Made by a program: the position numbers and the translations under genes. Under the pieces are notes generated by a model that saw nothing but the letters and a program-made list of their open reading frames with translations, was not told the DNA's origin and did no database searches. A stretch of 40,612 nucleotides of DNA from a virus: positions 1 through 40,612 of the IMG/VR virus record IMGVR_UViG_3300037245_001260, one strand, 5' to 3'. Shown here in pieces: positions 6,461 through 27,924 of the stretch. Within the stretch, counting starts at the first letter, position 1; each line of letters starts with the position of its first letter.

Positions 6461-7159
6461 ATGTCTGAACTAAAAGTATTCCCTATAGGCTATATAGCAT
6501 CTACGAACAACGTGTCAAAAGGTTCGTGGACTAGTGGTGGTACGGAAGATCAACCAATGTTTGAGCCTAACGCAGGTAGTGGTAAGGTTAAGCTTGGTTA
6601 CTCAGGACAATCACCAGTAGAGAACAGAGCTATATGGACTAGGAAACTAGGGGAGCATAGACATGCACTAACATACACTTACAAAAACATATGGAACTCA
6701 GAGTTCAAACAGATACGAAGATTCAATAGAGACATTGCCTCATTCAAAGTGAATAGTTTTTATGTTGTTGATTTCTCTAGTGGACAGCAGATTTCTGCTC
6801 TAGCTACTGGTGCGAACTGGAATGCTTCTATCTATGACACTACTGACTTTACCGCAACGGCAGGAGAGGGTGGCAACTATTGTTTTATCTGGCACCCGAA
6901 TAGTGCACGGTTTAGAATAGGTGTAGTCAATACTCACAACGAAGATTCTTCAATAGGATTTCCTAACACTAGTGACTTTGGAGACCTACAAGCTTTTAAG
7001 CGTGGAGAGACATGGGCTTATCCTATGTACAGGTGTTTTATGAAAGACGATAAGGAAGGCTTTAAAGTGAAGGCTCACGTTGACGCTAATCTTAATGCGT
7101 CCTTTGCTGGACCAGTGAGAACGGGTAATGTAAAATTCGTACAGAGGGATGTTAAATAA
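6461..7159 (+). CDS. Putative minor/distal tail protein (gpM position)
   Basis: A 232-aa, beta-rich, aromatic protein directly after the tape measure gene. In lambda this slot holds gpM, which joins tape measure and tip; this protein is about twice as long as gpM and no motif proves homology. It has a central segment with FYVVDFSSG and two Asn-Ala-Ser sites. Its TAA overlaps the ATG of the gpL-like gene (TAATG), so the two are translationally coupled. A role at the distal end of the tail tube is an inference from gene order. Confidence 0.5.
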   Translation: MSELKVFPIGYIASTNNVSKGSWTSGGTEDQPMFEPNAGSGKVKLGYSGQSPVENRAIWTRKLGEHRHALTYTYKNIWNSEFKQIRRFNRDIASFKVNSFYVVDFSSGQQISALATGANWNASIYDTTDFTATAGEGGNYCFIWHPNSARFRIGVVNTHNEDSSIGFPNTSDFGDLQAFKRGETWAYPMYRCFMKDDKEGFKVKAHVDANLNASFAGPVRTGNVKFVQRDVK

Positions 7160-7839
7160 TGACACTAAGTATGAATGCCTCTTTGAAGGTAGAGAAAAAT
7201 AGATTAGAGGGTAGTACACCTGTACGCTTGTTATGTATGGAGTACGGGGATTTGGTTGCCAGTAGGGTGTACTTGGCTGCATGGAATGAAGACATTGAGT
7301 ACTTCCAGCCAGGAACAGCTACAGCGCAGACGTATACTGCCGCTCCTATTAAGATGGGCAGCATGAAGTATTCACAGGTAAGTCAACAGCCTACACTCGA
7401 TGTTACTATATCGAATATAGATAGGACTATGGTTGCTTACTTGGAACAGAATGATGGCCTACGTGGGAGAGCTTTCACCGTAGTACGTACCTACACTAAT
7501 CTGCTTAGTAATGCTAGTGCTTGTATCCATGAGACCTACTATGTTGACGGTGCTAAGTCAACACTGAAGTCTGCTATATTTACGTTGGTGCCAAAGACTA
7601 CATTGTTTGGTATCAAAGTACCTAAGCGTACGATGTTGAGAGATCAGTGTGCTTGGACGTTTAAAGGTGAAGAGTGTACTGGTAGTCCGACAGGTGGAAC
7701 TCCATCCATCGGTACGTTAGCTTCGCCTAGTGTAACTACTTGTATGAAAACCTTAGCTAGTTGTGACGTATATAATAATACTTCTAGGTATGGAGGTTGG
7801 CCTGGGATTCCAAAGACAAGGGTAATAATGGTGAACTAA
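7159..7839 (+). CDS. Minor tail protein, lambda gpL-like (possible Fe-S protein)
   Basis: A 226-aa protein with a C-terminal four-Cys region: C164, C173 (CAWTFKGEEC), C195 and C202, then the closing motif RYGGWPGIP. This is the layout of phage minor tail protein L, whose four cysteines hold an iron-sulfur cluster in lambda-like phages. The N-terminal two thirds are beta-rich. It lies between the gpM-position gene and the NlpC/P60 gene, exactly as L precedes K in lambda, and is coupled to both by TAATG overlaps. It is expected to be part of the tail tip complex. That it binds a cluster is inferred from the Cys pattern. Confidence 0.8.
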   Translation: MTLSMNASLKVEKNRLEGSTPVRLLCMEYGDLVASRVYLAAWNEDIEYFQPGTATAQTYTAAPIKMGSMKYSQVSQQPTLDVTISNIDRTMVAYLEQNDGLRGRAFTVVRTYTNLLSNASACIHETYYVDGAKSTLKSAIFTLVPKTTLFGIKVPKRTMLRDQCAWTFKGEECTGSPTGGTPSIGTLASPSVTTCMKTLASCDVYNNTSRYGGWPGIPKTRVIMVN

Positions 7840-8276
7840 TGAGAGCATACATAGGAATACCATACAAACATTTAGGTAGAGATAAGAAGGGCTTAGACTG
7901 CTACGGTATAGTAGTGATGATATATAAAGATAAGCTTGGGATAGAACTACCAGATGTACATCTATATGATTTTGGTGAGGATGCATGTAACTATATGACA
8001 GCATTCTACACAGAGAAGAAGTACGACCATGTGTTAGGATTCAGTCAGTTGTGGACTCCCGTAACTGAACTTGAACGGTATGACATCGTATTGTTTACAG
8101 CATACGAGCAGATACCAGCACCTACACATTCAGGTGTGTACTTGGGAGAAGGAAAGTTTATACATTGCATGCAAGGACTTCCAGTAACTATTAGTAGATT
8201 GGAAAAACAATGGAAGAGCATGTTTCATAGCGCATACAGATATAAGGAGAGGTTGGACACAGATGGTTCTATTTAA
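7839..8276 (+). CDS. NlpC/P60 tail peptidase, lambda gpK-like
   Basis: From ATG 7839, which overlaps the previous TAA, this is a 145-aa NlpC/P60 cysteine peptidase. The catalytic Cys21 is in GLDCYG, the first His (H97) in THSGVYLGEG and the second (H109) in FIHC, the family triad order. An in-frame TTG at 7797 could add 14 residues but reads inside the conserved C terminus of gpL, so I reject it. Lambda gpK has an N-terminal JAB/MPN domain before NlpC/P60; here only the peptidase is present. It probably cuts peptide cross-links in peptidoglycan during entry or assists tip assembly. Its end overlaps the gpJ-like start by 14 nt. Confidence 0.88.
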   Translation: MRAYIGIPYKHLGRDKKGLDCYGIVVMIYKDKLGIELPDVHLYDFGEDACNYMTAFYTEKKYDHVLGFSQLWTPVTELERYDIVLFTAYEQIPAPTHSGVYLGEGKFIHCMQGLPVTISRLEKQWKSMFHSAYRYKERLDTDGSI

Positions 8277-11200
8277 ATATATCCCTAACAGATATGCTGA
8301 CAAGAGCTACGAGGTTGAGGTTGAGCCTTGTAAACTTATTGACGGTATTGAAGAGTTAATAAACAAACACCCCGCAAAGAAGCAATCGCTTCACTGTATC
8401 AAGTGTGCTATTTATATCAATGGCGAATGGCTAGAGGGTGCAGATTGGCAACAGCATGAATGTCAAGATGGGGATGTAATAGAAATTACTCACACCATTG
8501 AAGGTGGTGTGCTTACATTCATATTTACCTTTGGTGGATTACTTGACTTCTCAGTAGACCCTCCTGAAGCAGAGACAGAAAGTACCGAAGAGATAGTTTG
8601 GGATGGTCCGAAGACTAACACTAAACAAGGCGTAGTTATGCCTGTCGTGTATGGTACTCACGGTGTTGGTGGAACATATATTAACTTTAATATATGGAGC
8701 GATGGCGAAGACAACTACGCAGACATGTTGGTCGCTCTGTGCGAAGGAGAGATATCTGGCATCCGTAATGAAGCTGATGATGGTAACGCTGCTATACCTT
8801 CCACTTTGGAAGACGTAGATACTGCGACTCCACACATTAGACTTAACGAACAGTTCATATCGGATTACGATGAAGCCTCTTGGGCAGGAAGGTCAGGAAC
8901 TAATCTTCAGACTTCTATCCAAGGGTTTAGAAACCTTCAAACTTTATACGACTATGCTTATGATGTACCTGCGGAAAGAGATAGTCCTGGTGGTAAGTGG
9001 ACATTACTATACACTACCAACGCAGATATAGACCAGTTCGACCTTAAGATGCAAGCCGATCAGTTGTATAACTACAACAAGAAAGGCAAGATGCGTTCTA
9101 ACGGTCTAAGGTATAGGGTTAGGCATAGTGTTACTGGACAAGACACTTGGACGTATGACCCTCCTGTTTCTGGTACTGTTGATAATTCTGATTCATGGCA
9201 TAAGGTAAGCGGTAAGTCACAGTCTGCTACTAAGGTAAACCTAACAGTTGATGTTGGGGCTAGAGACAGATACGACGTTCAGATACAGAGATACACTCCT
9301 GCTACAAACGCAGACGATGCAAAGAATCCTTTTAAGGTTATGCAGTTAACAGAGATAGTTAGTGAGGATTTAGCCTACCCAAACACGGCTGTCCTTGCTA
9401 TTCGAGTTAAAGCTACAGATCAGATATCAGGTTCTTTTCCTGAGATACTGACTACGGTGCAAGGTAGTAAGGTTAGAGTTCCTGATCTAGATGGTGGTGG
9501 TGGCGTAGAGTTTGAAGAATACTATTGGACAGGCACAGGTAATAACTTTGCAGAACTTGATGGTGGTGGTACTGAAACATGGGATGGTGCATCCTATATA
9601 GATCAGTACACATCTAACCCTGCGTACTGTATGAGAGACTTCTTAATTAATACTAGGTTTGGTGTGGGTGATGCTATCACTGATGCTGACCTAGACAACA
9701 CAGCTATAGATAACGCAGCCAAGAGATGTTGGCAGAAGGACACCGAATCTGGGATACATAAGAGTGAGTTGCATATTGTACTTGATGGAAAGAGTTCACC
9801 TAGTGACCATCTTTCACAGATGGCATTAGTGTCAAGGATATATGTATTTTGGTCAGGTGGGTTTATTAAGTTAAAGTATCTTGAAGATGAAGACCCTGTA
9901 CAACTTATTACAATGGGGAATATCTTAGAGGGTAAGTTTAGTACTACGTATATCTCTCAAACTTCTATTCCCAATATCTTAGCGGTTACATTTGCTGACA
10001 AGGCAGATAACTTTAAGTCAGCTACACGAGAGTTAGTTGACGAAGCCGAGTGGGCATTGAATAAACCACAGAGGAAAAAAACACTTAGTCTTAAAGGTGT
10101 TACTACTACGTCTCAAGCGTTACGAGAGGCGAAGTACCACTTGAATAGAGCTAGGTGGCGAAGACGAGTTGTTTCCCTAACCACTACAGTTGAAAGTTTA
10201 CATTGTGAGCCTGGCGACATTGTTGCTGTGCAACACGATGTTCCACAGTGGGGATGGGGTGGTCGTGCACTTACTAACAGTACATCTACTACGATAAACT
10301 TAGACCAAGAAGTACCGGCCAATGTTGTTGGTGACCCGACTGCTTATGACATCAAAGTTATACATGCGGAAGACGACTCTATAGAAACATTTGACATACT
10401 CAGTGTGAGTGGCAAGGAAGTCACAATTGATGGTAATTGGGATACTACTCCTGCTGAAGACGATTCATATATCATCGGAGTAACTGATGCTTCGATCAAA
10501 GAGTATAGAGTCACAGACATGACTGTTAACGAAGATGACTCGATAAGAATGAAACTAGAGGAACATTTAGCCGCTATTTATTCAGACACAGGCTACGTGG
10601 TAAGCGACGATGAAGCCAGCGAGTTACCAAACCCTGCTGCGTTTCCTCCACCAATTACTAACCTCACATTATATGAACTCCACAATGAAGTAGGCATGGG
10701 CGTGTCTTTTAGTCAACCCAAACCTACATCTCTTCCAGTTGGAGTTCCCACCAACGTTACAGGTGGTAGTGGTGAGATAATTGATTGGGACCACGCTGAT
10801 ATTTTTATGTCAACTGATAACGAGAAGTTTGTGAAGGTAGCTGAAGGCTATGGTAGTGATGATGTAGAACTCACAGGTTTAATGCCTGGGATTCAATACT
10901 ACATAGATGTTTACTCTATAAACAAAATAGGAATAGCGAACGTCACCCCTGTCAGTGCTACTATAACACTTACGGGAGCAAACATAGGTCCTCCTGCTTC
11001 TGCTACTGGTCTAGAGATAGATGACGGTGGCGTTGGTCAGGGATTGGTTACTACGTTTGGTGGTAAGGATTGTAAGTTTAAATGGAACCTCAATGCTCCG
11101 TACGGTGGTGCTGGTAGTTTAGAACCACAACAACCTGCTGGTATAGCAAGTACAGATTGGGCTGTTGTTCGTGACTTTAAAATTGAGATATGGAACTATA

Positions 11201-12210
11201 CAGGTACTATAAAGATTAGGACTGAGTACACAACTGATAAGTTCTATGCTTATACTTACGCAAAGAACTACGAAGATTCAGGTGGAATACCGAGGCGAGA
11301 GTTTCAAATAAAGGTATACCAAAGAAACTGGTTTTCTTTAGAGTCTATAGTTCCTGCTATACTGGCTGTGGATAATCCTAGGCCTAACATGGCAGTCTAC
11401 ACTCCACAGTTAGATAGTATTTACCGTGGTGTGCGAGTTGACTTCAGTTCATACAGAGAACTAGACAACGACATGGATTACTATAAGGTAATGTATGGGT
11501 ACAATAATCCTCCAACTGCTTCTGTAGATTACGTGGGTTGGAGAAATCAGGTTCATTCACTACAAGGGCTAGCACAGCTAACTAAGGTCTATGTTCAGAT
11601 TGTACCTTATGATGCATTTGGTGTTGGAGCTACTAGTGCTGTAGCTAGTGGTAGAACGGATGGCTTTGATTTTGTTAATGCTAGTCTTAACGAGTGGACG
11701 ATAAAGGCTGACGCTATCATTGCGTCTATCATCAAACACGGTGATATTAACAGCTCACATATTGGTGTAGAGCATTTGTCTGCTATTGAAGCTGACATTG
11801 GTACAATTAGAACTGGTTACATCAACGGTGTTATCATCACAGGCGGTATGTTTAGAACTGCTGAATCTGGTAAGAGGATTGAGATCACTGGAGATGGTAT
11901 AGCCTTAGCTCTTAACTCAGGTGGCGAAGGTTATGGTTATGTAAGATACGGAGATGACCCGGCAGAAAACGCTAGTATACATTTTGGTACTGGTGCTATA
12001 GCTTACATACATCACATGGCTGAAGCAGTTCCGTTCTATATTGCAGCGGAACAAACTGTTGGAGATTTTCATTTCTATAATAGATCGTCTGACCCTTCAG
12101 GACTTGCTGAGGTAGGCGATGTGTGTGTGGTAAACTCTAACTTTAAAATATGTATATCAGGTGGAGTTCCTGGCACATGGGAACTAGTAGGAAATCAAGC
12201 ATCAGTATAA
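8263..12210 (+). CDS. Tail tip/host specificity protein, gpI-gpJ fusion
   Basis: A 1315-aa central tip protein. Residues about 1-85 look like a ubiquitin-like beta-grasp domain ending in DGDVIEITHTIEGG. A hydrophobic stretch follows (VLTFIFTFGGLL), then the gpI-type signature QGVVMPVVYGTHGVGG. After this the gpJ-type body begins (ADMLVALCEGEISGI, then IRLNEQFI), with long beta-sandwich regions and fibronectin-III-like modules (about 800-1100, e.g. GLMPGIQYYIDVYSINKIG). The C-terminal end is probably the receptor-binding part. In lambda, gpI and gpJ are separate proteins. AAGGAGAGG lies upstream of the ATG, inside the gpK-like gene. The protein forms the tail tip and contacts the host receptor. 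Confidence 0.88.
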   Translation: MVLFKYIPNRYADKSYEVEVEPCKLIDGIEELINKHPAKKQSLHCIKCAIYINGEWLEGADWQQHECQDGDVIEITHTIEGGVLTFIFTFGGLLDFSVDPPEAETESTEEIVWDGPKTNTKQGVVMPVVYGTHGVGGTYINFNIWSDGEDNYADMLVALCEGEISGIRNEADDGNAAIPSTLEDVDTATPHIRLNEQFISDYDEASWAGRSGTNLQTSIQGFRNLQTLYDYAYDVPAERDSPGGKWTLLYTTNADIDQFDLKMQADQLYNYNKKGKMRSNGLRYRVRHSVTGQDTWTYDPPVSGTVDNSDSWHKVSGKSQSATKVNLTVDVGARDRYDVQIQRYTPATNADDAKNPFKVMQLTEIVSEDLAYPNTAVLAIRVKATDQISGSFPEILTTVQGSKVRVPDLDGGGGVEFEEYYWTGTGNNFAELDGGGTETWDGASYIDQYTSNPAYCMRDFLINTRFGVGDAITDADLDNTAIDNAAKRCWQKDTESGIHKSELHIVLDGKSSPSDHLSQMALVSRIYVFWSGGFIKLKYLEDEDPVQLITMGNILEGKFSTTYISQTSIPNILAVTFADKADNFKSATRELVDEAEWALNKPQRKKTLSLKGVTTTSQALREAKYHLNRARWRRRVVSLTTTVESLHCEPGDIVAVQHDVPQWGWGGRALTNSTSTTINLDQEVPANVVGDPTAYDIKVIHAEDDSIETFDILSVSGKEVTIDGNWDTTPAEDDSYIIGVTDASIKEYRVTDMTVNEDDSIRMKLEEHLAAIYSDTGYVVSDDEASELPNPAAFPPPITNLTLYELHNEVGMGVSFSQPKPTSLPVGVPTNVTGGSGEIIDWDHADIFMSTDNEKFVKVAEGYGSDDVELTGLMPGIQYYIDVYSINKIGIANVTPVSATITLTGANIGPPASATGLEIDDGGVGQGLVTTFGGKDCKFKWNLNAPYGGAGSLEPQQPAGIASTDWAVVRDFKIEIWNYTGTIKIRTEYTTDKFYAYTYAKNYEDSGGIPRREFQIKVYQRNWFSLESIVPAILAVDNPRPNMAVYTPQLDSIYRGVRVDFSSYRELDNDMDYYKVMYGYNNPPTASVDYVGWRNQVHSLQGLAQLTKVYVQIVPYDAFGVGATSAVASGRTDGFDFVNASLNEWTIKADAIIASIIKHGDINSSHIGVEHLSAIEADIGTIRTGYINGVIITGGMFRTAESGKRIEITGDGIALALNSGGEGYGYVRYGDDPAENASIHFGTGAIAYIHHMAEAVPFYIAAEQTVGDFHFYNRSSDPSGLAEVGDVCVVNSNFKICISGGVPGTWELVGNQASV

Positions 12211-15573: not shown

Positions 15574-18255
15574 ATGGCATCAAAGAAACCGTTATGTTTA
15601 TACACAGGAAACGTTAAGCAGTTACAACCAGGAGATACACTGATTGGTGCGTACAATGCAACCGAAGCTGGTTGGGTTGTTAATGCATCTGCATGGTTAG
15701 TTGCGACCCCTGGCTCTGTTAAGTTAGTGAATAGAGTTGTGTGTGGTAGTATCAGCCCTGTCACTAATGGTGGTATTAAGATACTGGATAATAACGACAA
15801 TGTTGTTTTATTTACATCACCGTCTGGGAACTTAGACCATGTTGGGATAGGTTCTGCTGTGACACTTCCAGAAGCGCATCTTCATTTAATGCAGAAAGGC
15901 TCTGGCTTAGTTGAGATGCGAATGACGAACGATACTACTGGACATACAGATACAGATGGTTTGGAATTGGGTCTGGATGCTAACGAACATGTATATTTCT
16001 ACAACAATGAAAACACTAGGATGTACTTTGGTACTAATAAACTGCTACGTATGTCTATTACTGCTGACGGTATCGCTAGTGTAAACACCCTAAGAGCAGG
16101 TCCTATACACGGACTAACAACGGCATCTATTGACGGTGCTTTGACTATAGGCGCAAACTTCCAAGGTGTCAATGCTAGTCTGGATAATGTAACATTACGT
16201 AACGGAAAGGTCTTACGTACAGATAAGGTACAAGCCAGAGACTCTGGTGGTCTTAAGTTATATGAAGATGGCGGTACTGGTATCCTTGTTCAGAACACAA
16301 CAGGTTTAGTTGAAGTGGAAGCGTCTATGGTTGTGAGAGGCAATGCATCTATCGACGGTAACTTAACTGTTGGTGGTACAGGTATGTTCGGTAACTCAGT
16401 TACTATCACGGCTGACGTACAGGTTGCAGCAGGTCAGAAGTTCTATATGGATGGCGGTGCTGACACGTACTGGACAGCTAGTAACGATGTTATAACTGGA
16501 CATGTTAACAGTGCAACCGTTATAAACTTTGGTGTGAACAAGGCTCACTTTACAAATTCCGCTTCTATTGATGTCGACTTATTTGTTGGTGGAGACTTGC
16601 ACGTACTTGGTTCGTTGAATGTTCATGCGTCTACTCTATATTTTGGAGACAATCAATTTGGTGATGCAGTAACAGATCACCAGACACTTTACGGTATCGT
16701 AACGATATACAATGATGGTGCAGGTAATCCATTACGAGTAACAGGTAACGCTTCTATTAGTGGTACATGTTATGTTGACGGTACTATGGGCGTTGGTGGT
16801 GCGCTTACACTAGGTAATGCTAATCATGTATTTGATGGTAACTTACGCATGCCTGTTAATAGTGAAGTTACGCTTGGCAGCTCACAGGCCGGGGCGAGAC
16901 CACTTTATGTATATGATAGTGCTCAGGTAGGAATTGTATATGAGAGTTCTGGCAATAAGAGTACTCTTGGGATAAGAGCTGCTAACACAACGAATCAGTA
17001 TGGCAACTATATTACTGCCAGTGGAGATCAACTATGGATGACTCCTGGCAACATGGGTAACACTCAGTGGATGTTAACTGCTAACTCTGATGGTGTTGTG
17101 GTAGGTTCTGCTATAATGGTTCCTGCTAGTAATAGACATCTTCATCTGAACAGTAAGGGTTCATACTGTAGGCTGCAAATTACTGATTCAACCACAGGAC
17201 ATAGTAGCACTGACGGTGTGGAGATTGGTCCGCAAGGTACTACTTACGCTGCGTTGTTCGCTCACGACTCTCCTTGGTCTATTAAGGCACAAGGTGACCA
17301 CGTAGCAACATGGGCAAACACAGGACTTACTCTTGCCAACAGTGACAGTCTTAAGACTGATAAGGTTATGGGTAGAGACGCTGGTGGATTGTGGTTAGTT
17401 GAAGATGGCGGTCTTGGTATATTCGTTGAGAACACTACTGGCTACGTCTCTATAGGTTCTCCTACTGCTAATCCTCCATATCCTCTTGATGTTTGGCATG
17501 CTGGTGACAACACTATAGCTAGATTCCAAAGTGCAGATAACAATTGTTATATAAGACTAGATGATGATACACAGCATATGGACATAGGGCTACTCAATAA
17601 TGAGATAGTTATCAGAGATACTAACGCAGTTGCAGTTGTAGCAATAGACCAAACCACTAATACTATGGTAGTAGCTGGTTCAGTATTAGCAAGTGCTTTT
17701 ATACTTGGCGAAGGAGCAAGGTTAGCCGCTTGTTCGATTAACGCATCTGGAGTCATTACCGCAGGTAGTGGTTCAGACATGATGCTTAACGAGCACGACG
17801 ACACAAGTCCTAATCAAGAGTTCATAGCTGAGAAGATATGGAATGCGGTCTACAATGATGTTGTAGATTGGCAGGACTTAAAAGAAGGTGCGGAGGTAAA
17901 ATATGGAAAGGTTTATGTTGATAGTTATGATGGAGCACATCTACCTACAGGGAGATGTCAGCTCGGAGTTATGGGAATCTGTTCCGACACATTCGGTTTT
18001 GCAGTGGGTAGGATTCAAGACAGGAATCAAATCCCTGTATCGGTGGCTGGCTGGTGTTTAGCCTACGTCGATAAAATGTATCAAACAGGTATACCACTAA
18101 CCAATACATCTTCAGGTTGCTTGACTGAGATGAACGCAACAGAGAAGATGACATTTCCAGAGAGACTGATCGCTATATACAAGCGACCAGAGCATGAGGA
18201 AGTGTGGCAGGGTAAGGTAGAAACAAAAAATAGGCATTGGGTGCAGGTGAAATAA
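15574..18255 (+). CDS. Large tail fibre protein
   Basis: An 893-aa fibre protein. The body (about 90-730) is made of beta-repeat units of the kind G-N-A-S-I-D-G-N-L-T-V-G-G, typical of trimeric beta-helical fibres. Two related modules share HLHL, TTGH, TDG, then LRTDKV or LKTDKV with RD[SA]GGL and EDGG-GI (see repeats at 15877 and 17137). The last ~150 residues form a distinct domain (GVMGICSDTFGFAVG, IPVSVAGWCLAYVDK, FPERLIAIYKRPEH), reminiscent of C-terminal autocleaved chaperone domains of fibres (Peptidase_G2-like), though I cannot confirm the catalytic residues. Seven Asn-Ala-Ser/Thr tripeptides are visible. Confidence 0.8.
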   Translation: MASKKPLCLYTGNVKQLQPGDTLIGAYNATEAGWVVNASAWLVATPGSVKLVNRVVCGSISPVTNGGIKILDNNDNVVLFTSPSGNLDHVGIGSAVTLPEAHLHLMQKGSGLVEMRMTNDTTGHTDTDGLELGLDANEHVYFYNNENTRMYFGTNKLLRMSITADGIASVNTLRAGPIHGLTTASIDGALTIGANFQGVNASLDNVTLRNGKVLRTDKVQARDSGGLKLYEDGGTGILVQNTTGLVEVEASMVVRGNASIDGNLTVGGTGMFGNSVTITADVQVAAGQKFYMDGGADTYWTASNDVITGHVNSATVINFGVNKAHFTNSASIDVDLFVGGDLHVLGSLNVHASTLYFGDNQFGDAVTDHQTLYGIVTIYNDGAGNPLRVTGNASISGTCYVDGTMGVGGALTLGNANHVFDGNLRMPVNSEVTLGSSQAGARPLYVYDSAQVGIVYESSGNKSTLGIRAANTTNQYGNYITASGDQLWMTPGNMGNTQWMLTANSDGVVVGSAIMVPASNRHLHLNSKGSYCRLQITDSTTGHSSTDGVEIGPQGTTYAALFAHDSPWSIKAQGDHVATWANTGLTLANSDSLKTDKVMGRDAGGLWLVEDGGLGIFVENTTGYVSIGSPTANPPYPLDVWHAGDNTIARFQSADNNCYIRLDDDTQHMDIGLLNNEIVIRDTNAVAVVAIDQTTNTMVVAGSVLASAFILGEGARLAACSINASGVITAGSGSDMMLNEHDDTSPNQEFIAEKIWNAVYNDVVDWQDLKEGAEVKYGKVYVDSYDGAHLPTGRCQLGVMGICSDTFGFAVGRIQDRNQIPVSVAGWCLAYVDKMYQTGIPLTNTSSGCLTEMNATEKMTFPERLIAIYKRPEHEEVWQGKVETKNRHWVQVK
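15877..16310 (+). repeat. Fibre module, copy 1
   Basis: Coding repeat within the 893-aa fibre. It begins at the codons for HLHL, then TTGHTDTDGLELG, and ends with LRTDKVQARDSGGLKL, YEDGGTGI and NTTG. It is related to 17137-17450, with diverged DNA and a longer middle. Confidence 0.6.
17137..17450 (+). repeat. Fibre module, copy 2
   Basis: Second copy of the module: HLHL, then TTGHSSTDGVEIG, LKTDKVMGRDAGGLWL, VEDGGLGI and NTTG. The inner spacer is about 120 nt shorter than in copy 1, so an old internal duplication followed by indels is likely. Confidence 0.6.
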
Positions 18256-18256
18256 T

Positions 18257-20041
18257 ATGGGTTACGATTGGACAGAACAGATAGGTACTCCCGTTAGGGA
18301 GAACCTTCGGACATATGCAGAGACAGACCCTAACGGTACTATTGTTAGAAATGAGAGAGTTATTACGTATACAGATTTTGATAGAGTTGCTGATGCAAGA
18401 GTCTCGTTTGACTTTGGTGCTAGTTACTTTGACAATGACTTTGTTCACACTTTTACTATTACATGTTCAGAACTTGATACTGCTGGTGCTTACGCTGGTT
18501 TTTACTCGTTAAAGAACACTAACATAGACGACGGTACTGCTTGGGATACTGTTCCACACATTACTATGTTTTGGTATAGAAGTGGTGCGACTACTCTTAT
18601 GTATTTACGTGAGGGAAATGGAGCCTCTGGTGGTACTAGTGCTACCTCTGAAGAGTACGCAAGAGATGGTACTCCTTATTATATGAAGGTGGCATATGTA
18701 TCTGGTGAAGGAGCCAACGGAACTATATACCTATATGGATATACAGACGCTACTCACGAAACTCTCGTAGACAGACAGTATATTATATTAGGTGGTGCGA
18801 TGGACTACAGATGGCTTCAAACTATGGTTCAGTATGCTGGCGGAGCTGGTGGCCTACTTGCTACTGGTACTAACTCAGATTATGTACTTAGGACAATGAG
18901 TGGCGGTGGGGTGACTACTGAACCTGAGCTTGATCTATATTGGTCGTATGATGATATAGACGGTACTTCTATATACGATCACAGTGGCAAGGGAATTACT
19001 GGTACTATTGAAGATAATGGAGGGGCTATTCCTGCTGCGTTAGTTGATGGAGTAGCTGGCAGAGCACTAGATATCGCACCAAATAAAGTTGTCACAGCAG
19101 CACTTACTCTTAGTGGAAATTTATCTATGTCTGTTTGGACAAACTCAAGAACATGGGTAGGTTGGGCTTCACCTTTGACGACCTACATGCATGCGGCACA
19201 AGGGTTTGGTATGGGTTTTACGCTAGTAAATGGAGCAGTTGTGCGTGTATATGCAGCCAACGACGATGCGTATACTTACACAGATAGAAATTTTGCTTTT
19301 AGTGTAGATACTTGGTATCATATAGTTATTACTTATGACTCTGGACAGGTTGCGATTTATGTAAATTCAGTAAAGCAAGGTGCAGATTGGGCAAGAACAG
19401 TAGATTTTACAGATTGTGGTGTTGCTTCAGGAAGATGGGCTACCAACTACAATGGTTATTATTATGATGGTATAGTCGATGAAGCTAGAATTTACGGTGT
19501 CGCTCTCTCCCAAGGCCAGATAGATTATTTGTATAACAATCCACAAGGGCCGATAGTTACAGTAGAAGATTCTCAGATACTAGAGATGCGAACTCACATT
19601 AACTCAGAACGTGTTGATCGTGCTAGTCTTGCTGCATACGTATGGACTGACTCAACTATTGATGGTCAAGAAGTTTTACAGACAGAGATAGCAGAACTAC
19701 GTACAGCTATTGATGATGCGTACGACGGTCTGCTTACTTGTAGTGCTCATTATACGTCCGACGATTCGACGCACTATACAACCGACAAGTCATCTCACGA
19801 CAGTAGCGTGTGTGGCACTCATTACACGACTGACGAGGCAGCACATTATTCGACTGACGATTCTACTGATGACGGAACACATTATACTACACATTACATA
19901 ACGCATGATGCTACAGCATATAAGACTCACAACGCTGCGCAGAATTCTTCTCGTAAGACTTTCTACACTACTGGAATTTACGCTGAGGGATTGTGTATAT
20001 TTAGAACATATGATAAGGCTAAGTTAAGGAGAGAAGAATAA
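18257..20041 (+). CDS. LamG-domain tail protein with C-terminal T-H-Y-T tetrad repeats
   Basis: A 594-aa protein. It begins MGYDWTEQI. Residues about 40-220 are a beta-sandwich-like region. Residues about 225-430 form a LamG/concanavalin-like domain (LYWSYDDIDGTSIYDHSGKG; DTWYHIVITYDSGQVAIYVN; GIVDEARIYGVALS). A short helical unit follows (ILEMRTHINSERVDRASLAA, then WTDSTIDG and ELRTAIDDAY), of a kind I associate with phage tail proteins. From residue 497 a four-residue repeat runs to about 568. Likely role: sugar-binding adhesin with a repetitive tail. The ribosome site is weak (CAGGTGAAATAAT). Its TAA overlaps the next ATG. It is the first gene of the proposed modification operon; the repeats are candidate substrates of the downstream radical SAM enzymes. 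Confidence 0.75.
   Translation: MGYDWTEQIGTPVRENLRTYAETDPNGTIVRNERVITYTDFDRVADARVSFDFGASYFDNDFVHTFTITCSELDTAGAYAGFYSLKNTNIDDGTAWDTVPHITMFWYRSGATTLMYLREGNGASGGTSATSEEYARDGTPYYMKVAYVSGEGANGTIYLYGYTDATHETLVDRQYIILGGAMDYRWLQTMVQYAGGAGGLLATGTNSDYVLRTMSGGGVTTEPELDLYWSYDDIDGTSIYDHSGKGITGTIEDNGGAIPAALVDGVAGRALDIAPNKVVTAALTLSGNLSMSVWTNSRTWVGWASPLTTYMHAAQGFGMGFTLVNGAVVRVYAANDDAYTYTDRNFAFSVDTWYHIVITYDSGQVAIYVNSVKQGADWARTVDFTDCGVASGRWATNYNGYYYDGIVDEARIYGVALSQGQIDYLYNNPQGPIVTVEDSQILEMRTHINSERVDRASLAAYVWTDSTIDGQEVLQTEIAELRTAIDDAYDGLLTCSAHYTSDDSTHYTTDKSSHDSSVCGTHYTTDEAAHYSTDDSTDDGTHYTTHYITHDATAYKTHNAAQNSSRKTFYTTGIYAEGLCIFRTYDKAKLRREE
19745..19960 (+). repeat. Tetrapeptide repeat tract A (18 tetrads)
   Basis: Coding repeat, residues 497-568 of the LamG protein. 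It reads in one register as AHYT SDDS THYT TDKS SHDS, SVCG THYT TDEA AHYS TDDS, TDDG THYT THYI THDA TAYK, THNA AQNS SRKT. Position 1 is Thr/Ser/Ala, position 2 mostly His or Asp, position 4 mostly Thr/Ser/Ala/Gly. It starts two residues after Cys495. Confidence 0.85.
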
Positions 20042-20445
20042 TGGCATATGCATGGACTGAAACTATAACTCAAGGAACAGAGATTGAAGTTGCTGACTAC
20101 TTAGAGGTACGTAATGTGACTGACGAGTGTAAGGATGGATGTTACGCCCATTATGGAACAGAGAATTCTGACCATGATTCGAATCATGATGCTACTCATA
20201 ATAGTACAGATGACGGAGCAGCAGAGGGAACACACAATGCTACTCATGATTCCTCAGACGATTCTTCTCATGATAGTGGTAGGGAAGCTACACATTATAC
20301 TACACACCTAGTTACACACGATGTAACACACTATACTACACATTATGGGGCTAATAACGCAGCTAGGTACACACGTCATCTGACTAGCAACAGGTCACCA
20401 TATAAGTTCTCACACAAAGGCTCTAACACAGGTGGGGAAGCATAA
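20041..20445 (+). CDS. Small tetrad-repeat protein, candidate RiPP-like substrate
   Basis: A 134-aa protein starting MAYAWTETI, matching MGYDWTEQI of the preceding protein. A short linker (E-V-A-D-Y-L-E-V-R-N) leads to Cys30 and Cys34; then the tetrad repeat runs without a break from residue 36 to at least 119. The end is basic and Gly-rich. It looks like a reduced version of the upstream protein: N-terminal motif, helix and repeat, without the lectin part. Its ATG overlaps the upstream stop and the radical SAM gene starts 11 nt after its stop. It could be a minor virion protein or a peptide substrate for the two maturases. No known family is recognised; Hxs (His-Xaa-Ser) systems are similar in concept but have period-3 repeats. 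Confidence 0.7.
   Translation: MAYAWTETITQGTEIEVADYLEVRNVTDECKDGCYAHYGTENSDHDSNHDATHNSTDDGAAEGTHNATHDSSDDSSHDSGREATHYTTHLVTHDVTHYTTHYGANNAARYTRHLTSNRSPYKFSHKGSNTGGEA
20146..20397 (+). repeat. Tetrapeptide repeat tract B (21 tetrads)
   Basis: Coding repeat, residues 36-119: AHYG TENS DHDS NHDA THNS, TDDG AAEG THNA THDS SDDS, SHDS GREA THYT THLV THDV, THYT THYG ANNA ARYT RHLT, SNRS. His fills position 2 in 13 of 21 tetrads. It starts two residues after Cys34, as tract A does after Cys495. A 16-17-nt DNA string encoding T-H-Y-T-T-H is shared with tract A. Confidence 0.88.
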
Positions 20446-20455
20446 AGGAGACAGA

Positions 20456-21874
20456 ATGAAATATAAATTTAAAGACAAGATAGTAGCCGTTGAATTGGTA
20501 AACGCTGGTAAATGTAATATGGACTGTGCGTATTGTTACATTCCTAAGTCTAAAGGGATGAACGTGCTACACGACGAGGTGGTTGCTTACTTAGAAAGTG
20601 GTAAGTTTCTAGATGACACGGCAGAATTATATGGTGAGAATCTAGAACATCTAAGTCTGTGGGGAACAGAACCTACTCTTACCATCGACATATTCACAAG
20701 GTGGATGCCTCAGATTTTAGATAGGTTTCCTAAGTTACAGGGTTTTAACTTTTCTACGAATTTCATGAGAGACCCTAAGTGTTTGTTAGACTTCGTGAAG
20801 GCTGCTCCTAGAGACAGAGACCCGTTTGAGATTGGGATACAGTACTCAATAGACGGACCTGCGTGGATAACAGATGTCACCAGACACCCAAACGCTACTA
20901 AAAGAATAACTGGTAATGTAAAGAAGTTCATGAAAGAATTAACTAAGCTAGACTTAGGAGAGTTGCACATACACATGAACTGTAAGCCTACTTGGAATGA
21001 AGACATAATCGAAATGGTAGGGAAAGACTTGGCGTTGCTCACTGACTACTTAGAATTCTTCAATGAGTTCTTCGGAGAGATAGACGAGATACTAGAAGGA
21101 GTACCAAAGAGTTACATAAGCCATGCTAAGATTAACGCACCATTCCTAGGACTACCAGGTATGTACACACAGCAACATGGTATTTATTGGGGTGAGATTT
21201 ACAAGACGATGTTGGAAGAACAACAGAAACACATAGAGTATGGGAAGTACCCTCATTTGTCCTGCGACTTCACAGGGTATCTACCACGGTATCAACGGAT
21301 ACTGGACTACGGTAGAGAGTTCTACACCAAGCCAGAGATGTTTACATGTTCGGCTGGTGACTCTCAGTATGGTTTAGACCATAAGGGGATGCTTCATTCA
21401 TGTCATAGGACTTTCTATTTGAACGATGACAACTATGTTAAGTCTGTTACCGATGACTGCAATAATGGCAATTGGGATTTGGAACATTACCAAAATGACA
21501 GACTAGGGGATATCAGAAAGAACATGATGGTGGACATTCACGACGATGACGCATGTTCTAGATTCATATATTATAATGCTACTCACCACCACTTTATTAA
21601 AAACAGAATAAACATCTATACTGGTTTAATAAAGATACTAGCAAAGGCTGGTCAGATTAATCCTATCTACTACGACGATGTGGTAGCCAGAACATTTGCT
21701 GAGTACGCAGCTACCGCATACAACTGCAATGTTGAGTATGCACTCACGTTAGGGAGTATGAGTTTGATTCCAACTGGAATCATAAAGGTAAGTTGTAACG
21801 GTATGTTTGAGCATATGGTAAAGGCTGCTGTAGGTGGAGAGCATAGATACAAAGACGATTGGGTTAAAGCATAA
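20456..21874 (+). CDS. Radical SAM protein 1 (partial SPASM-like)
   Basis: A 472-aa protein from ATG 20456 with AAAGGAGACAGA just upstream. The [4Fe-4S]-SAM motif is C20-NMD-C24-AY-C27. The SAM-binding WGTEP motif and SIDGP follow in the usual order of the TIM barrel. Near residue 300 is C-x12-G-x4-C (CSAGDSQYGLDHKGMLHSC), the first half of a SPASM auxiliary-cluster signature. The second half (CX2CX5CX3C) is not seen, so it may bind one auxiliary cluster or a different one. It directly follows the repeat-protein genes and precedes a second radical SAM gene. It is likely a peptide-modifying enzyme acting on the tetrad repeats; the reaction is unknown. Confidence 0.85.
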   Translation: MKYKFKDKIVAVELVNAGKCNMDCAYCYIPKSKGMNVLHDEVVAYLESGKFLDDTAELYGENLEHLSLWGTEPTLTIDIFTRWMPQILDRFPKLQGFNFSTNFMRDPKCLLDFVKAAPRDRDPFEIGIQYSIDGPAWITDVTRHPNATKRITGNVKKFMKELTKLDLGELHIHMNCKPTWNEDIIEMVGKDLALLTDYLEFFNEFFGEIDEILEGVPKSYISHAKINAPFLGLPGMYTQQHGIYWGEIYKTMLEEQQKHIEYGKYPHLSCDFTGYLPRYQRILDYGREFYTKPEMFTCSAGDSQYGLDHKGMLHSCHRTFYLNDDNYVKSVTDDCNNGNWDLEHYQNDRLGDIRKNMMVDIHDDDACSRFIYYNATHHHFIKNRINIYTGLIKILAKAGQINPIYYDDVVARTFAEYAATAYNCNVEYALTLGSMSLIPTGIIKVSCNGMFEHMVKAAVGGEHRYKDDWVKA

Positions 21875-21884
21875 AGGAGACAGT

Positions 21885-23231
21885 ATGCAGTATACAGAAG
21901 AGTACAAAAAAGAAAACAGCAAGTTGTTTGAGTTCTTTCTTGAGAACAGTTTCTTTAAGACTTGGAGAGCTGACCCATCTCATGAAGACCATCAAGCAAA
22001 CTATAGTAACCTAGAGTTTATGGTTAACCACAAGTGCGAATTAAAATGTAAGTACTGTTATATGGATAAGTATCACAAGTCTTACTTTCCAAAAGGAAGT
22101 CAGGTTGCTTCTACTATCCTACATAACACAGACTTGGTTATTGATTGGCTGATAGCCAACGAGTATAAACCAGCTATAGAGATGTTTGCAGGAGACAGCG
22201 TAGGAGACCCTACGTGCAGAAAGATTATACATAAAATACAAGACGCTGCACTTCAGGGTAGATCACCAGCGAGTGAGGTTGTACTACCTACTAACATGGG
22301 TTGGTTACACAGCCCCAATAAAGTAAAAGATGTCGAAGACTTATTAAAGAAGTCAGAGTTCTCTGGTCTTCCTATGTTTATTAGTATGTCAGTTGATGGA
22401 AAATACATGGAAGAGAACAGACCATTCAAGTCAAAGAATCGTAGATGGGATGAAGAGAGCTACAATAGAATGTTTGAGTTCTTGGTTAGGTATCCTGTTA
22501 GTGGAGTACATCCTATGGTGTATTCTCATAACATAGAAAAGGCTAAGGATAATTTTCTGTGGTGGCAGGAGAAGTACGACGAGTTCGGTCTTGATTGGAC
22601 ACGTATGTATTTCTTAGAGGTAAGGAATCCAGAGTGGACATTAGCTCAGACTAAAGAATACGCAGAGTATATAAAGTTCTTGGTGAGATGGTCATACGAT
22701 AAAGTGAATAGAGACAAAGAAAGATTCATACATTTCTTACTAAGGAATAATGGGTTTAATATCTTAGGAACCCCGTTTATCCAAACAGGAAGAGGGATGC
22801 CTTGTTCTATCCAAGCATGTTTAACTCTTAGGTTAGGTGATCTAACAGTTATACCTTGCCATAGGACAGCATACAAACATATGGAAACAGCTTCAATGAT
22901 TGTAGAAGATGAAAAGATCACAGGATTCAACGCAAAGAACGTTGAGTTATGGTTTTCAATACAATCACTTGACAGTGAAGTATATCCTTACTGTGAGATT
23001 TGTAGCATTAAACATATGTGTAAGGGTGGGTGCCTAGGAGCGCAGTACGAAGCTACTGGTAATCTGTTTGCTCCGATACCCTCGGTTTGTAGATTGTATC
23101 ATGCAAAGATCGTAGCTTTGATTGAAGTTCTTGTAGAGCTAGACGTATTTGATATGACGATGAAGTATATTGCTAAACATAAAAGAATAGCATTTGAATT
23201 AATAAAAACACACATAACGGAGGCAGTATAA
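21885..23231 (+). CDS. Radical SAM/SPASM protein 2
   Basis: A 448-aa protein from ATG 21885 with AAAGGAGACAGT upstream. The radical SAM motif is C51-ELK-C55-KY-C58. The C-terminal part holds a clear SPASM signature: C near PCSIQAC, PCHR, then CEICSIKHMCKGGC, an exact CX2CX5CX3C, and a last Cys in SVCRLYH. SPASM proteins commonly modify ribosomal peptides (cross-links, epimers, decarboxylation), and anaerobic sulfatase maturases share the layout. The first 45 residues before the barrel are helical and might bind substrate. Its TAA overlaps the next ATG. With protein 1 it forms a pair, as HxsB/HxsC do in Hxs systems, but homology to those is not shown. Confidence 0.88.
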   Translation: MQYTEEYKKENSKLFEFFLENSFFKTWRADPSHEDHQANYSNLEFMVNHKCELKCKYCYMDKYHKSYFPKGSQVASTILHNTDLVIDWLIANEYKPAIEMFAGDSVGDPTCRKIIHKIQDAALQGRSPASEVVLPTNMGWLHSPNKVKDVEDLLKKSEFSGLPMFISMSVDGKYMEENRPFKSKNRRWDEESYNRMFEFLVRYPVSGVHPMVYSHNIEKAKDNFLWWQEKYDEFGLDWTRMYFLEVRNPEWTLAQTKEYAEYIKFLVRWSYDKVNRDKERFIHFLLRNNGFNILGTPFIQTGRGMPCSIQACLTLRLGDLTVIPCHRTAYKHMETASMIVEDEKITGFNAKNVELWFSIQSLDSEVYPYCEICSIKHMCKGGCLGAQYEATGNLFAPIPSVCRLYHAKIVALIEVLVELDVFDMTMKYIAKHKRIAFELIKTHITEAV

Positions 23232-23755
23232 TGAGTTTAGAACAGACAGCAACAAAAGTAGTAGACATTATGAGCAGAGTTGATATGGTGTACATAATCC
23301 ATCCTCAAGAGAGAGAAGCTATTAATCTTGTGTTGGGTATGGCACATACTGATCTTACCAAACTAGAAGAGAATAAGGAAGTAAAGGCAACAGAGGAAGA
23401 TACGAATAGTATGCACGCCGCTCTTAACTTTTGTAAGAGACTTGTGATTGACGAGCCTATAACTGAGCGACTAGCAGAGCTAGTGGAGGGCATATGTCTG
23501 GTGGTACACAACTGGAATGTCAACATAGGTAACGATGGAACGATTCATAAAGACGTAAAGTTTCTTAATAGTGCTATTAAACAACATTTCACAATAACAC
23601 AAGCTATAGAGATACTTAAGCGCATCCTCGGCAAGTTTGAGAACTTAAACTATGGATGTGATAACATTAATTCTATCAGTGCACATTACCTTGAGGCACT
23701 AGATAAGATACATGGGGTAAGTGAAGATGAATGCAAAGAAGATAGTTGTATTTAA
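23231..23755 (+). CDS. Unknown helical protein coupled to radical SAM 2
   Basis: A 174-aa, mostly helical, acidic protein of no family I recognise. It has no membrane segment or signal peptide. The C terminus holds three Cys (C in YGCDN, then DECKEDSC). Its ATG shares a base with the radical SAM 2 stop (TAATG) and its 3' end overlaps the glycosyltransferase by 29 nt, so it should be made together with both. A partner or substrate-binding role in the modification pathway is plausible from position only. Confidence 0.6.
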   Translation: MSLEQTATKVVDIMSRVDMVYIIHPQEREAINLVLGMAHTDLTKLEENKEVKATEEDTNSMHAALNFCKRLVIDEPITERLAELVEGICLVVHNWNVNIGNDGTIHKDVKFLNSAIKQHFTITQAIEILKRILGKFENLNYGCDNINSISAHYLEALDKIHGVSEDECKEDSCI

Positions 23756-24764
23756 TTTGAATGTAGGTTCTGCTATAGAATACGCAGGAGATATATTTGT
23801 GGGTTGGTTAAGAGAGTTAGGTCATAATGTAAAAGAGTACAAACAACAAACTGAATGTCAAGACGGTCTTTCGTTTCTTATCAACTCTGACCCTGACCTT
23901 ATAGTTATCAATGAGTATTACTACAGACCTCTAGTAATTAACTACATGTACAGGACTTTAAAATATGTACCTGTTATCTATATAGACCACAGTTGGAATA
24001 GGATAAATTATTGGGTTGAAGGTACTATACGTAACGAGTACGAGAAAATGGTACACATGTGGTATAGGCATACGTTGGACATGGTTAGTTATGTCTTCTG
24101 TTTGAACAGTAAGCCGATAGGGGAACCGTGGAACTATCAAGTGAAAGATAAGATTTCTAATAGGTATTATCCAACGGACGATGCTATCTTTAATGTAACT
24201 AAGCCCTGGTCCGATCGGTCCAAGATGTTTTGTTACATAGGTAACATCATACCGCATAAGCTGTCTTCGGATTTCCTAGCAAAGATATGTGAGACTGATC
24301 TGGTAGTGGATTGTTACGGTTCAGATTTTACCAGAGATAATGCCCACGGTAGAGTGTTCGACAGGGCGGTAGAGAATGGGAACATAGTACACCACGGTCT
24401 CATACCGCAAGATAAGATTGCAGAGGTAATGAACGAGTACAAATACTTTGTACTACCACACGACGGATACGAACCTTTTAATTGGGTACTGAAACAATGT
24501 GCGTTCTGTGGTACTATCCCTCTTGTCGTTAACGACAGGAACACGCATCTATATAACGGTAAGTGGCTGGATTGGGCGGCTGGACTGTATATGGGATGTC
24601 AGTACACAGACGATTTCATTAGTAACCTAGAAGAACTAGTTCGTGATCGTCCAGATCACAGAGAGATGTCAGATTTTATAAGCACAGCAGCAAAGATACA
24701 GTTTCCTTATCAGGAGTTTAAGGAAGAATTCCAAAGTAAAGCGAGGGAGTTGCTCAATGGCTAA
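23727..24764 (+). CDS. GT-B-like glycosyltransferase 2
   Basis: A 345-aa protein from ATG 23727 (GTG 23721 in frame). The N-terminal Rossmann half has KIVVFNLNVGSA and the first-domain helix VGWLRELGHNV. The C-terminal half starts MFCYIGNIIPHK, a common second-domain strand of GT4-like enzymes, and continues with YGSDFTRDN, HHGLIPQDKIAEVMNEYKY and a nucleotide-sugar region near FVLPHDGYEPFNWVLKQC. It resembles the 150-1238 enzyme only in fold. Overlaps tie it to the 174-aa gene upstream and the endolysin downstream. It might glycosylate Ser/Thr/Asn of the repeat or fibre proteins, or alter host glycans. Confidence 0.62.
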   Translation: MNAKKIVVFNLNVGSAIEYAGDIFVGWLRELGHNVKEYKQQTECQDGLSFLINSDPDLIVINEYYYRPLVINYMYRTLKYVPVIYIDHSWNRINYWVEGTIRNEYEKMVHMWYRHTLDMVSYVFCLNSKPIGEPWNYQVKDKISNRYYPTDDAIFNVTKPWSDRSKMFCYIGNIIPHKLSSDFLAKICETDLVVDCYGSDFTRDNAHGRVFDRAVENGNIVHHGLIPQDKIAEVMNEYKYFVLPHDGYEPFNWVLKQCAFCGTIPLVVNDRNTHLYNGKWLDWAAGLYMGCQYTDDFISNLEELVRDRPDHREMSDFISTAAKIQFPYQEFKEEFQSKARELLNG

Positions 24765-26512: not shown

Positions 26513-26791
26513 TGATTCGAAGTCACTTAACTTCATGACCACCCAATCTTCATCATGTCTTTGACTGAGTAGATGGATAACTAGCAAGGGAACTTTATAT
26601 TCCTCGCAGTTGTCCATTGTTTGTTTCCAGAAGCTTTCAAACCACTTAGGTAGTTTCTCCCTAGACTTACATTCAATGCTGTAGATTGGATGTAGTACGT
26701 CCTCTCCACCTAGCACTCCTAGTCTCCTGCCACCTAAACGCTCTGCTATTTTCTTTTCGAAGCGTTTGCCTCGATCTCTATTCTTGCTCAT
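26474..26791 (-). CDS. PD-(D/E)XK nuclease-like, resolvase-type small protein
   Basis: A 105-aa protein starting MSKNRDRGKRFEKKIAERLG. This is the usual opening of small Holliday-junction-resolvase-like or VRR-like nucleases (G-K-x-F-E-x-x-I-A). The catalytic pattern follows: GGEDVLHPIYSIECK, with D and E-x-K placed as in PD-(D/E)XK enzymes. Start at 26791 overlaps the TAA of the radical SAM gene; an upstream in-frame ATG at 26806 lies inside that gene. It is likely to cut branched DNA during replication or packaging. It is last in the leftward transcript and ends in the terminator. Confidence 0.7.
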   Translation of the reverse strand: MSKNRDRGKRFEKKIAERLGGRRLGVLGGEDVLHPIYSIECKSREKLPKWFESFWKQTMDNCEEYKVPLLVIHLLSQRHDEDWVVMKLSDFESLCATKPTSKRVA

Positions 26792-27924
26792 TAAGACCTC
26801 CACCATGTAGGTATATGTGTTACGTCTGTGTAGTGTACTCCTGTCATATCGTTGCCTAAGCTGTCTAGCATACTGTTTGGCATTATAATTAAGTCTGGTT
26901 CGAATACCAACCGTGCTTCATATGTAGCCTTCCTCAGATCATCAATTAGTAGAAGTCCATTACAATTTATATTCCCACCATATGTGTGATTGACTACCTT
27001 GTGAACATAGTGTTCGTTTGGAAAGAACTGGCTATCGTGTGCCACTAATTTGACTAGTCTATCATAGCCTACCTCTGCTGTCAGCCACATCACCTTCCTA
27101 CAGCTTCTTTCTCTCAGTGAATCCACCATATAATCGTACGGCGAGACCATCAATGGCCTGTTTGGGTCTTTCTCCCAAGTGATAGAAGTGTTGTCACATG
27201 CTTTGTACATCTCGTAAGCAAATGCTTTAAACTCTTCGTGATCTACTGTCATAAGTTCAAGCATCTCTGTACTTGCAAGCTTGCTGTACCCAGGCTCCCA
27301 TAGTATTATACCGTAAGGAGAGAAGCTATTCATAAACAACATCGTTTCCTTAAGGTTTTCGTATCCTGCTATATTAGGTATGGCTACCATAGCACCACTC
27401 AGACCTAACCCTGCATCTGTGCACAGTTGCCAAGCGTTTGTTGCTACCTCGAACTGTTTCTCAGTCATACCATATATCTTAGTCCAATGATCTATGTTAT
27501 CAGAATGGTACGAGATACACAAATTAAACGGTTTAAGCTCTGCCATCTTAGCTACAAACTCTTCAGTAAGTAAAGACCCATTAGTAGTTATATGTAATGG
27601 GTTGTGTGGCATCTGATGTCGAATCATCTTACATATCTTGAAAAACTGAGGATGCAACGTAGCCTCTCCTTCAGAGATACTACCAGGCATGGTATCGCTC
27701 AGTCGTATCTCAACATCTGGTGCAAGGTTTCTCATGTTATGAAACAATTGCTCAGATACGTCCTTGTAAGGTCTGAACCCACATCTATATATAGGGAATG
27801 GATTCATCTTGTTTGAGCAGAACAGGCATTTAGCATTACACACTGTAGATAGTGGTAATACATTCCTGCCTGCACTACGCATACCTTCATTTTGAAAATA
27901 ACTTACTGGTGTTGTCAAACTCAT
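26791..27924 (-). CDS. Radical SAM protein 3 with DUF512-like C terminus
   Basis: A 377-aa protein. The cluster motif is C29-NAK-C33-LF-C36. ITTNG and further barrel motifs follow. The last ~80 residues read VVNHTYGGNINCNGLLLIDD, then LIIMPNSML and HYTDVT. This matches the pattern I know from DUF512 radical SAM proteins (V-x-N-x-F-F-G-x-x-V-x-V-x-G-L-L, P-x-x-M-L, F-x-D). DUF512 proteins have no clear known function. It lacks SPASM cysteines, and is unlike radical SAM 1 and 2. It lies on the other strand, after a deoxyribosyltransferase-like gene and before the nuclease, with TTGGAGTATTAAT before its ATG. It may modify DNA, nucleotide or protein; undetermined. Confidence 0.8.
   Translation of the reverse strand: MSLTTPVSYFQNEGMRSAGRNVLPLSTVCNAKCLFCSNKMNPFPIYRCGFRPYKDVSEQLFHNMRNLAPDVEIRLSDTMPGSISEGEATLHPQFFKICKMIRHQMPHNPLHITTNGSLLTEEFVAKMAELKPFNLCISYHSDNIDHWTKIYGMTEKQFEVATNAWQLCTDAGLGLSGAMVAIPNIAGYENLKETMLFMNSFSPYGIILWEPGYSKLASTEMLELMTVDHEEFKAFAYEMYKACDNTSITWEKDPNRPLMVSPYDYMVDSLRERSCRKVMWLTAEVGYDRLVKLVAHDSQFFPNEHYVHKVVNHTYGGNINCNGLLLIDDLRKATYEARLVFEPDLIIMPNSMLDSLGNDMTGVHYTDVTHIPTWWRS

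Follow-up and report, generated by a model that had tools for sequence, protein, structure and literature searches.

Paired radical S-adenosylmethionine (rSAM) enzymes that act with a repetitive substrate are familiar from Hxs systems, whose repeat is a His-Xaa-Ser tripeptide. The ranthipeptide maturase PapB (NF047865) acts repeatedly on a repeated motif, and the CXXX-repeat maturases (TIGR04115/TIGR04119), YhhB, AmcB and GrrM are rSAM/SPASM enzymes of short repeated units. Here we describe a comparable arrangement in a 40,612-bp IMG/VR virus record (IMGVR_UViG_3300037245_001260), the whole of which is called the window below, where six same-strand genes at 18257-24764 follow one another almost without gaps. 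They encode two proteins with arrays of four-residue units (tetrads), two rSAM enzymes (rSAM-A and rSAM-B), a helical protein that we call rC and a GT-B-like glycosyltransferase. We consider it likely that this block is a phage-borne maturation cassette in which rSAM-A and rSAM-B, together with rC, modify the tetrad arrays of putative tail proteins. Its logic, with a leader, a repetitive core and paired rSAM enzymes, is that of ribosomally synthesized and post-translationally modified peptide (RiPP) systems. When the open reading frames (ORFs) were re-derived, we recovered the gene order, strand, coordinates, rSAM motifs and junctions that an earlier note on this DNA had listed:

18257-20041, + strand: 594-aa LamG-tetrad protein, with a LamG domain at about 19097-19522 (Laminin_G_3, E 8e-15), a leader-like domain (W..I..G..E[IL]R..[IN]D) at about 19634-19745 and a C-terminal tetrad array at about 19736-19951 (residues about 494-565)
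20041-20445, + strand: 134-aa tetrad protein, overlapping the LamG-tetrad gene by 1 nt, with a leader-like domain at 20041-20145 (included in alignment A8), then a boundary Cys and a tetrad array at about 20149-20424 (residues about 36-128)
20456-21874, + strand: rSAM-A, ATG start, motif CNMDCAYC, radical SAM with partial SPASM/twitch cysteines; 10-nt gap after the 134-aa gene, with AAAGGAGACAG upstream of the rSAM-A start
21885-23231, + strand: rSAM-B, ATG start, motif CELKCKYC, full SPASM domain; 10-nt gap after rSAM-A
23231-23755, + strand: rC, 174-aa all-helical cassette protein of a conserved family (A5); 1-nt overlap with rSAM-B
23727-24764, + strand: GT-B-like glycosyltransferase (family f3), ATG start; 29-nt overlap with rC
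15574-18255, + strand: 893-aa tail-fibre-like protein, directly upstream of the cassette; a related family (f4) lies upstream in three other loci

We place the cassette in the tail operon because of this tail-fibre-like gene and because the lambda-type tail module of the window includes a J homologue at 8263-12210 (phrog_31 central tail fiber J, E 1.4e-91). The two tetrad arrays were scored against shuffles that preserve each array's own composition, using a position model for which every locus except the window served as training data. The z-scores obtained were 12.0 for the LamG-tetrad protein and 13.0 for the 134-aa protein, so the period-4 signal is not an effect of chance or composition. 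Tandem Repeats Finder (TRF) detected a single weak 12-nt array in the window (20288-20346, score 46, 71% matches), indicating that the tetrad periodicity is maintained at the protein rather than the DNA level and does not reflect a recent DNA repeat.

Single-sequence back-translation scans with rSAM-A and with rSAM-B retrieved no relatives, and a DNA pattern for TH every four residues matched simple DNA repeats only. When 2.9 million viral contigs were scanned with a tetrad-codon pattern, 88 stretches matched; most were simple repeats, which we told from true arrays by tetrad diversity. Just two of the 88 (L130 and L181) were diverse, non-simple tetrad arrays; both adjoin an rSAM gene pair, and the encoded enzymes align with those of the window at 33-38% identity. 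An alignment-based search with rSAM-B then yielded 20 viral loci and one contig of an archaeal metagenome-assembled genome (MAG), with two more contigs of that MAG found later, and a search with rSAM-A yielded eight further distinct viral contigs. With duplicates removed, 30 distinct contigs carry tetrad proteins, rSAM-A, rSAM-B and rC: the window itself, 26 others from IMG/VR and three from the one archaeal MAG. Their rSAMs are 22-43% identical to those of the window. Tetrad proteins were present in every rSAM-A/B locus: arrays with z of 5.6-25.8 were scored in 29 of the 30 cassettes, and the exception, L270, encodes a protein with the leader domain and a degenerate array just downstream of rC.

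Gene maps showed two tetrad genes followed by rSAM-A, rSAM-B and rC in most cassettes. The tetrad genes lie downstream of rC in L213 and L215, and the order is rSAM-A, rC, tetrad, tetrad, rSAM-B, rC in L220, L254 and L263 (L222 is similar). The linkage of tetrad and rSAM genes thus persists despite variable gene order. A nucleotidyltransferase-like gene, recognized by eye as HxGH-type, adjoins the split-order cassettes (L220 9835-10749, L222 9773-10681, L254 3252-4124 and L263 7060-7968). The archaeal cassettes (L231, L244 and L245) are three diverged examples on three short contigs of one Thermoplasmata MAG (G001), and represent either archaeal viruses or co-binned virus contigs; Thermoplasmata as the host was set aside, since of 390 genomes in that phylum only one has the system. 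None of the cultured phages in the collection encodes the cassette, the only matches there being Campylobacter phage rSAMs at about 24%.

Because alignment-based retrieval rests on the rSAM genes, we added pattern searches blind to them: rSAM-independent ASCERTAINMENT, namely the tetrad pattern, a leader pattern (M-x-F-x-W ... E-h-R-x-N-h-D) and a first-protein leader pattern. The leader pattern matched 11 stretches and the first-protein leader pattern eight, and the pooled tetrad and leader scans covered 14 distinct contigs. In 12 of these, rSAM genes adjoin the tetrad proteins, including L301, which has two divergent rSAMs. L296 opens within the C-terminus of a divergent rSAM/SPASM protein (PF13186, E 0.003; PapB model, E 1e-7), some 50 nt ahead of its tetrad genes, and L297 breaks off 22 nt past the second of its tetrad genes, so that it says nothing on linkage. 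An rSAM gene was therefore found beside the tetrad proteins in 13 of 13 informative matches. The earlier note had proposed the maturation cassette, had suggested a search for co-occurrence, and had named tetrad proteins without linked rSAM genes as the outcome that would refute it; no such protein was seen among the 13, and the recurrent linkage in both search directions supports its idea of such a cassette; the rigid, protease-resistant tip that it gave as an example would be a further conjecture. Among the roughly 200 loci hit by a pattern, arrays in which 80% or more of the tetrads are distinct sit only beside rSAM genes, whereas low-diversity repeats occur without them.

All 56 arrays that we scored gave z of at least 5.6 (median 12.9). 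The description of the repeats as T-H-Y-T-type held for their periodicity in two tail-region proteins but was too narrow for the unit itself. Over 1474 tetrads from 29 loci, the consensus is T/S/G at position 1, Y/H/D/V at position 2, D/N/Y at position 3 and S/G/T/A at position 4, summarized as small / Y,H,D,V / D,N,Y / small. Cys occurs in 4% of the tetrads, Y/H/F/W at positions 2/3 in 54% (the L263 arrays are nearly free of aromatics) and D/N at position 3 in 54%. Toward the N-terminal side of the array, tetrad proteins carry one or two copies of a leader-like domain of about 35 aa, usually ending in a boundary Cys, with the consensus MAFxWxEDIxxGxxIxxADxxEIRxNxDxxxDNxxC; M, W, E and R are invariant in alignment A8. 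This substrate-type architecture of leader-like domain plus tetrad array is present in all scored loci, and the domain probably works as a leader.

Both enzymes carry the CxxxCxxC motif and auxiliary-cluster cysteines of RiPP-type rSAM/SPASM proteins. In rSAM-B the set is complete, with 3+7 Cys, including CX2CX5CX3C, invariant in 20 of 20 sequences (alignment A3). In rSAM-A, C20/C24/C27 (CxxxCxxC), C298 and C316 are invariant in 19 of 19 sequences (alignment A4), and one further Cys is conserved at 90% or more; since this set is incomplete, we regard rSAM-A as a partial (twitch-like) SPASM form. Among named families, those closest to both rSAMs mature peptides (PapB, YhhB, AmcB, GrrM and nif11-type), and the PapB, YhhB, AmcB and GrrM models match 18-19 of the 19 rSAM-A sequences. 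Profile matches in the PDB were few (5wgg, 8vpo, 9gm3 and 6efn); they are rSAM enzymes, the peptide maturase SkfB among them. In L228/L229 (5467-9816) the rSAM genes require TGA to be read as Trp, and the stops coincide with conserved Trp positions.

PapB is the best NCBIfam relative of rSAM-A and, over the full length, one of the top relatives of rSAM-B (E ~1e-11), and its repeated action on a repeated motif is what we propose for the cassette. It differs in that the cassette substrate is a putative tail protein, and the cassette enzyme reaches 44.7 bits against the NF047865 cut-off of 340. The likeness to Hxs that the earlier note had drawn stands as a functional analogy and does not extend to the protein families: HxsC (TIGR03977) scored 16.1 bits against a cut-off of 267.9 and HxsB (TIGR03978) 13.0-14.9 against 370, and the cassette repeat has period 4 rather than 3, without a requirement for His. 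The CXXX-repeat maturases, YhhB, AmcB and GrrM gave weak matches to the cassette rSAMs. All of these fell below cut-off, and the cassette arrays lack a Cys at every fourth residue. For the cyclophane synthases (YhhB, AmcB and GrrM/OscB), the YhhB model scored 24 bits against 445, and the share of tetrads with an aromatic residue given above is too low for substrates that would have one in each core unit.

rC forms a divergent family; its AlphaFold2 (AF2) model (pLDDT 84.6) is helical throughout, and a fold search in the PDB gave nothing better than E 0.36. The glycosyltransferase of the window has no Pfam or NCBIfam match of its own, which qualifies the note's assignment, though its relatives match Glycos_transf_1 (E 1.6e-9). 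Family f3 occurs in a minority of the loci, 7 of 20, so we treat it as accessory. A Glyco_transf_4 gene (E 1.2e-9) at 150-1238, at the left end of the record, is a second glycosyltransferase of the virus, and L130 similarly has a glycosyltransferase-like ORF upstream of its tail genes.

As we picture it, the leader-like (attachment) domain would recruit rSAM-A and rSAM-B, aided by rC, and the complex would proceed along the array, adding a repeated radical-chemistry modification. Full SPASM enzymes usually perform oxidative chemistry. For this reason, and because rSAM-B has no spare conserved Cys to serve as a hydrogen donor, the modification would most likely be an oxidative side-chain cross-link or a dehydrogenation, per tetrad or tetrad pair, rather than an epimerization. 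EpeE/PoyD-like epimerization was disfavoured as the general chemistry, since rSAM-B has no conserved Cys beyond the ten presumed cluster ligands. Thioethers were likewise disfavoured, there being too few Cys; Cys-Asp thioethers of the PapB kind cannot be the general product when so few tetrads contain Cys. Aromatic cyclophanes were disfavoured for want of aromatics. Given the frequencies of Cys, aromatics and Asp/Asn, the chemistry would have to be backbone-centred, fall on the small Ser/Thr/Gly/Ala residues, or leave some tetrads untouched. The unmodified array is predicted to be poorly ordered (pLDDT < 55, a low-confidence model), and modification could give it a definite form as a fibre element where the tail meets the host.

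Several observations weigh against this interpretation. No single known rSAM chemistry, thioether or aromatic cyclophane, suits every tetrad, and the SPASM cysteines of rSAM-A are incomplete. No cassette component could be assigned to a named family, all matches to named maturases lying far below cut-off. A PqqD-like RiPP recognition element (RRE) occurs in many, though not all, RiPP-type rSAM systems; no RRE family matched within the cassette, and rC is all-helical rather than winged-helix. In its favour, array composition distance correlates with the distance of rSAM-A (r 0.55, P 0.0008) and with that of rSAM-B (0.35, P 0.004), and shows no relation to GC (r -0.02), but such co-divergence could also come from co-inheritance without catalysis.

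Evolution is faster in the arrays than in the enzymes or the leader. Between L257 and L272, identity is 87% for rSAM-B and 80% for the second leader, and 30% for the array of the latter. In the near-identical phages L228 and L229 (10.1 kb), nearly all substitutions, and a 24-nt indel of exactly two tetrads, fall within the arrays. This variation is consistent with diversifying pressure on a host-contact element, the L228/L229 comparison being one pair. We considered a diversity-generating retroelement (DGR) as its origin; variant words recur within the same array, which fits intra-array recombination.

The tetrad proteins might instead be secreted effectors or antibacterial peptides of a RiPP-like kind, which the rSAM pair would mature but which would not belong to the virion. 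The leader, boundary Cys, repetitive core and rSAM pair are indeed a RiPP-like architecture, and in many loci the proteins are short (98-250 aa). We think this unlikely, however, since in a late operon these genes come immediately after those for tail fibre, J or tape-measure proteins, and the genes upstream of the cassettes, where recognizable, encode tail fibre or tape-measure proteins. LamG is fused to the first tetrad protein both in the window and in L217, nearly every phage has two tetrad proteins, and the gene maps show no protease or export gene recurring within the cassettes.

It is very unlikely, in our estimation, that rSAM-A, rSAM-B and the glycosyltransferase make a modified sugar that is put on tetrad Ser/Thr, or alter a host surface glycan, and leave the peptide untouched by the rSAMs. 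The arrays are rich in Ser/Thr, the glycosyltransferase is found in the 7 loci noted above, with another encoded at the left end of the window, and nucleotidyltransferase-like genes adjoin some cassettes; yet 13 of the 20 loci lack the glycosyltransferase, and the closest rSAM families act on peptides, not on sugars. That the rSAM genes serve metabolism or nucleic-acid modification and merely lie near tail genes, as Timms et al. 2010 (PMC2853527) read those of Campylobacter phages, is highly improbable, for although rSAM genes of other kinds do occur in phages (a third rSAM gene in the window, at 26791-27924, is unrelated), the two-way linkage to tetrads holds across highly diverged phages with variable gene orders, the affinity is to SPASM-type peptide maturases, and the rSAMs co-diverge with array composition.

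More distant relatives of rSAM-A (L273-L285) define a second class, in which 13 of 13 loci adjoin array proteins of the (C-x-C-[ND]-x-x)n type, with repeats such as NCICNSDCACNNVCACHNDCACN. Examples of these and the related cultured phage locus are:

L273, 5572-6237: class-2 locus
L274, 9113-9829: class-2 locus
L276, 9140-10281: class-2 locus
L275 and L277-L285: ten more class-2 loci
CP220 (L298), 3161-4765: CPT_0180, hypothetical protein with (CTCDCNY)n heptads
CP220 (L298), 6971-8140: CPT_0184, class-2 rSAM, 2.2 kb downstream

The class-2 rSAM genes are usually paired, with the Cys-rich repeat protein closely after them, and two of four array proteins checked have an S74 chaperone end. Both classes set phage rSAM genes beside a repetitive putative structural protein, and the rSAMs are related at 21-29% and PapB-like. 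Class 2 differs in its Cys-based repeat, its shorter rSAMs and the lack of a detected rC. Among cultured Campylobacter phages, the 15 records with a 30%-identical rSAM are the same 15 that have a CP220-type Cys-heptad protein. Timms et al. 2010 (PMC2853527) reported 11-12 rSAM genes and repeat regions in Campylobacter phages and read the enzymes as metabolic; here, phage rSAM genes form a modular cassette tied to repeat proteins of the tail in very diverged viruses. In Erwinia phage phiEaH2 (L299; 2937-3143 and 4058-6299) a small Cys-rich peptide gene (NCGGSCSWTCSGGCSHGAGNR), RiPP-precursor-like, stands just upstream of an rSAM pair.

On balance, we favour the broader view that, in tailed viruses of probably anaerobic hosts, rSAM chemistry iteratively turns hypervariable tetrads into a new type of stapled fibre, with a second, Cys-based version elsewhere. 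A full-text literature search, which took in no preprints and few subscription papers, gave no account of rSAM maturation of phage tail proteins. If our reading of the cassette is right, it would be the first example of virion proteins matured by rSAM enzymes and a new category of virion maturation, and would explain low-complexity tail proteins that look disordered. The enzymes would cope with widely varying residues at two of every four positions, and large structural proteins would join the substrate classes of SPASM enzymes that accept hypervariable sequence. Phage host-contact structures may then bear chemistry to which their sequence gives no clue. The idea is open to bench tests, including in the cultured class-2 phage CP220.

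The third rSAM gene of the window lies on the - strand, has the motif CNAKCLFC and matches DUF512 weakly. It stands in an opposite-strand region with deoxyribosyltransferase-like, QueC-like, ribonucleotide reductase and cytosine methylase genes.

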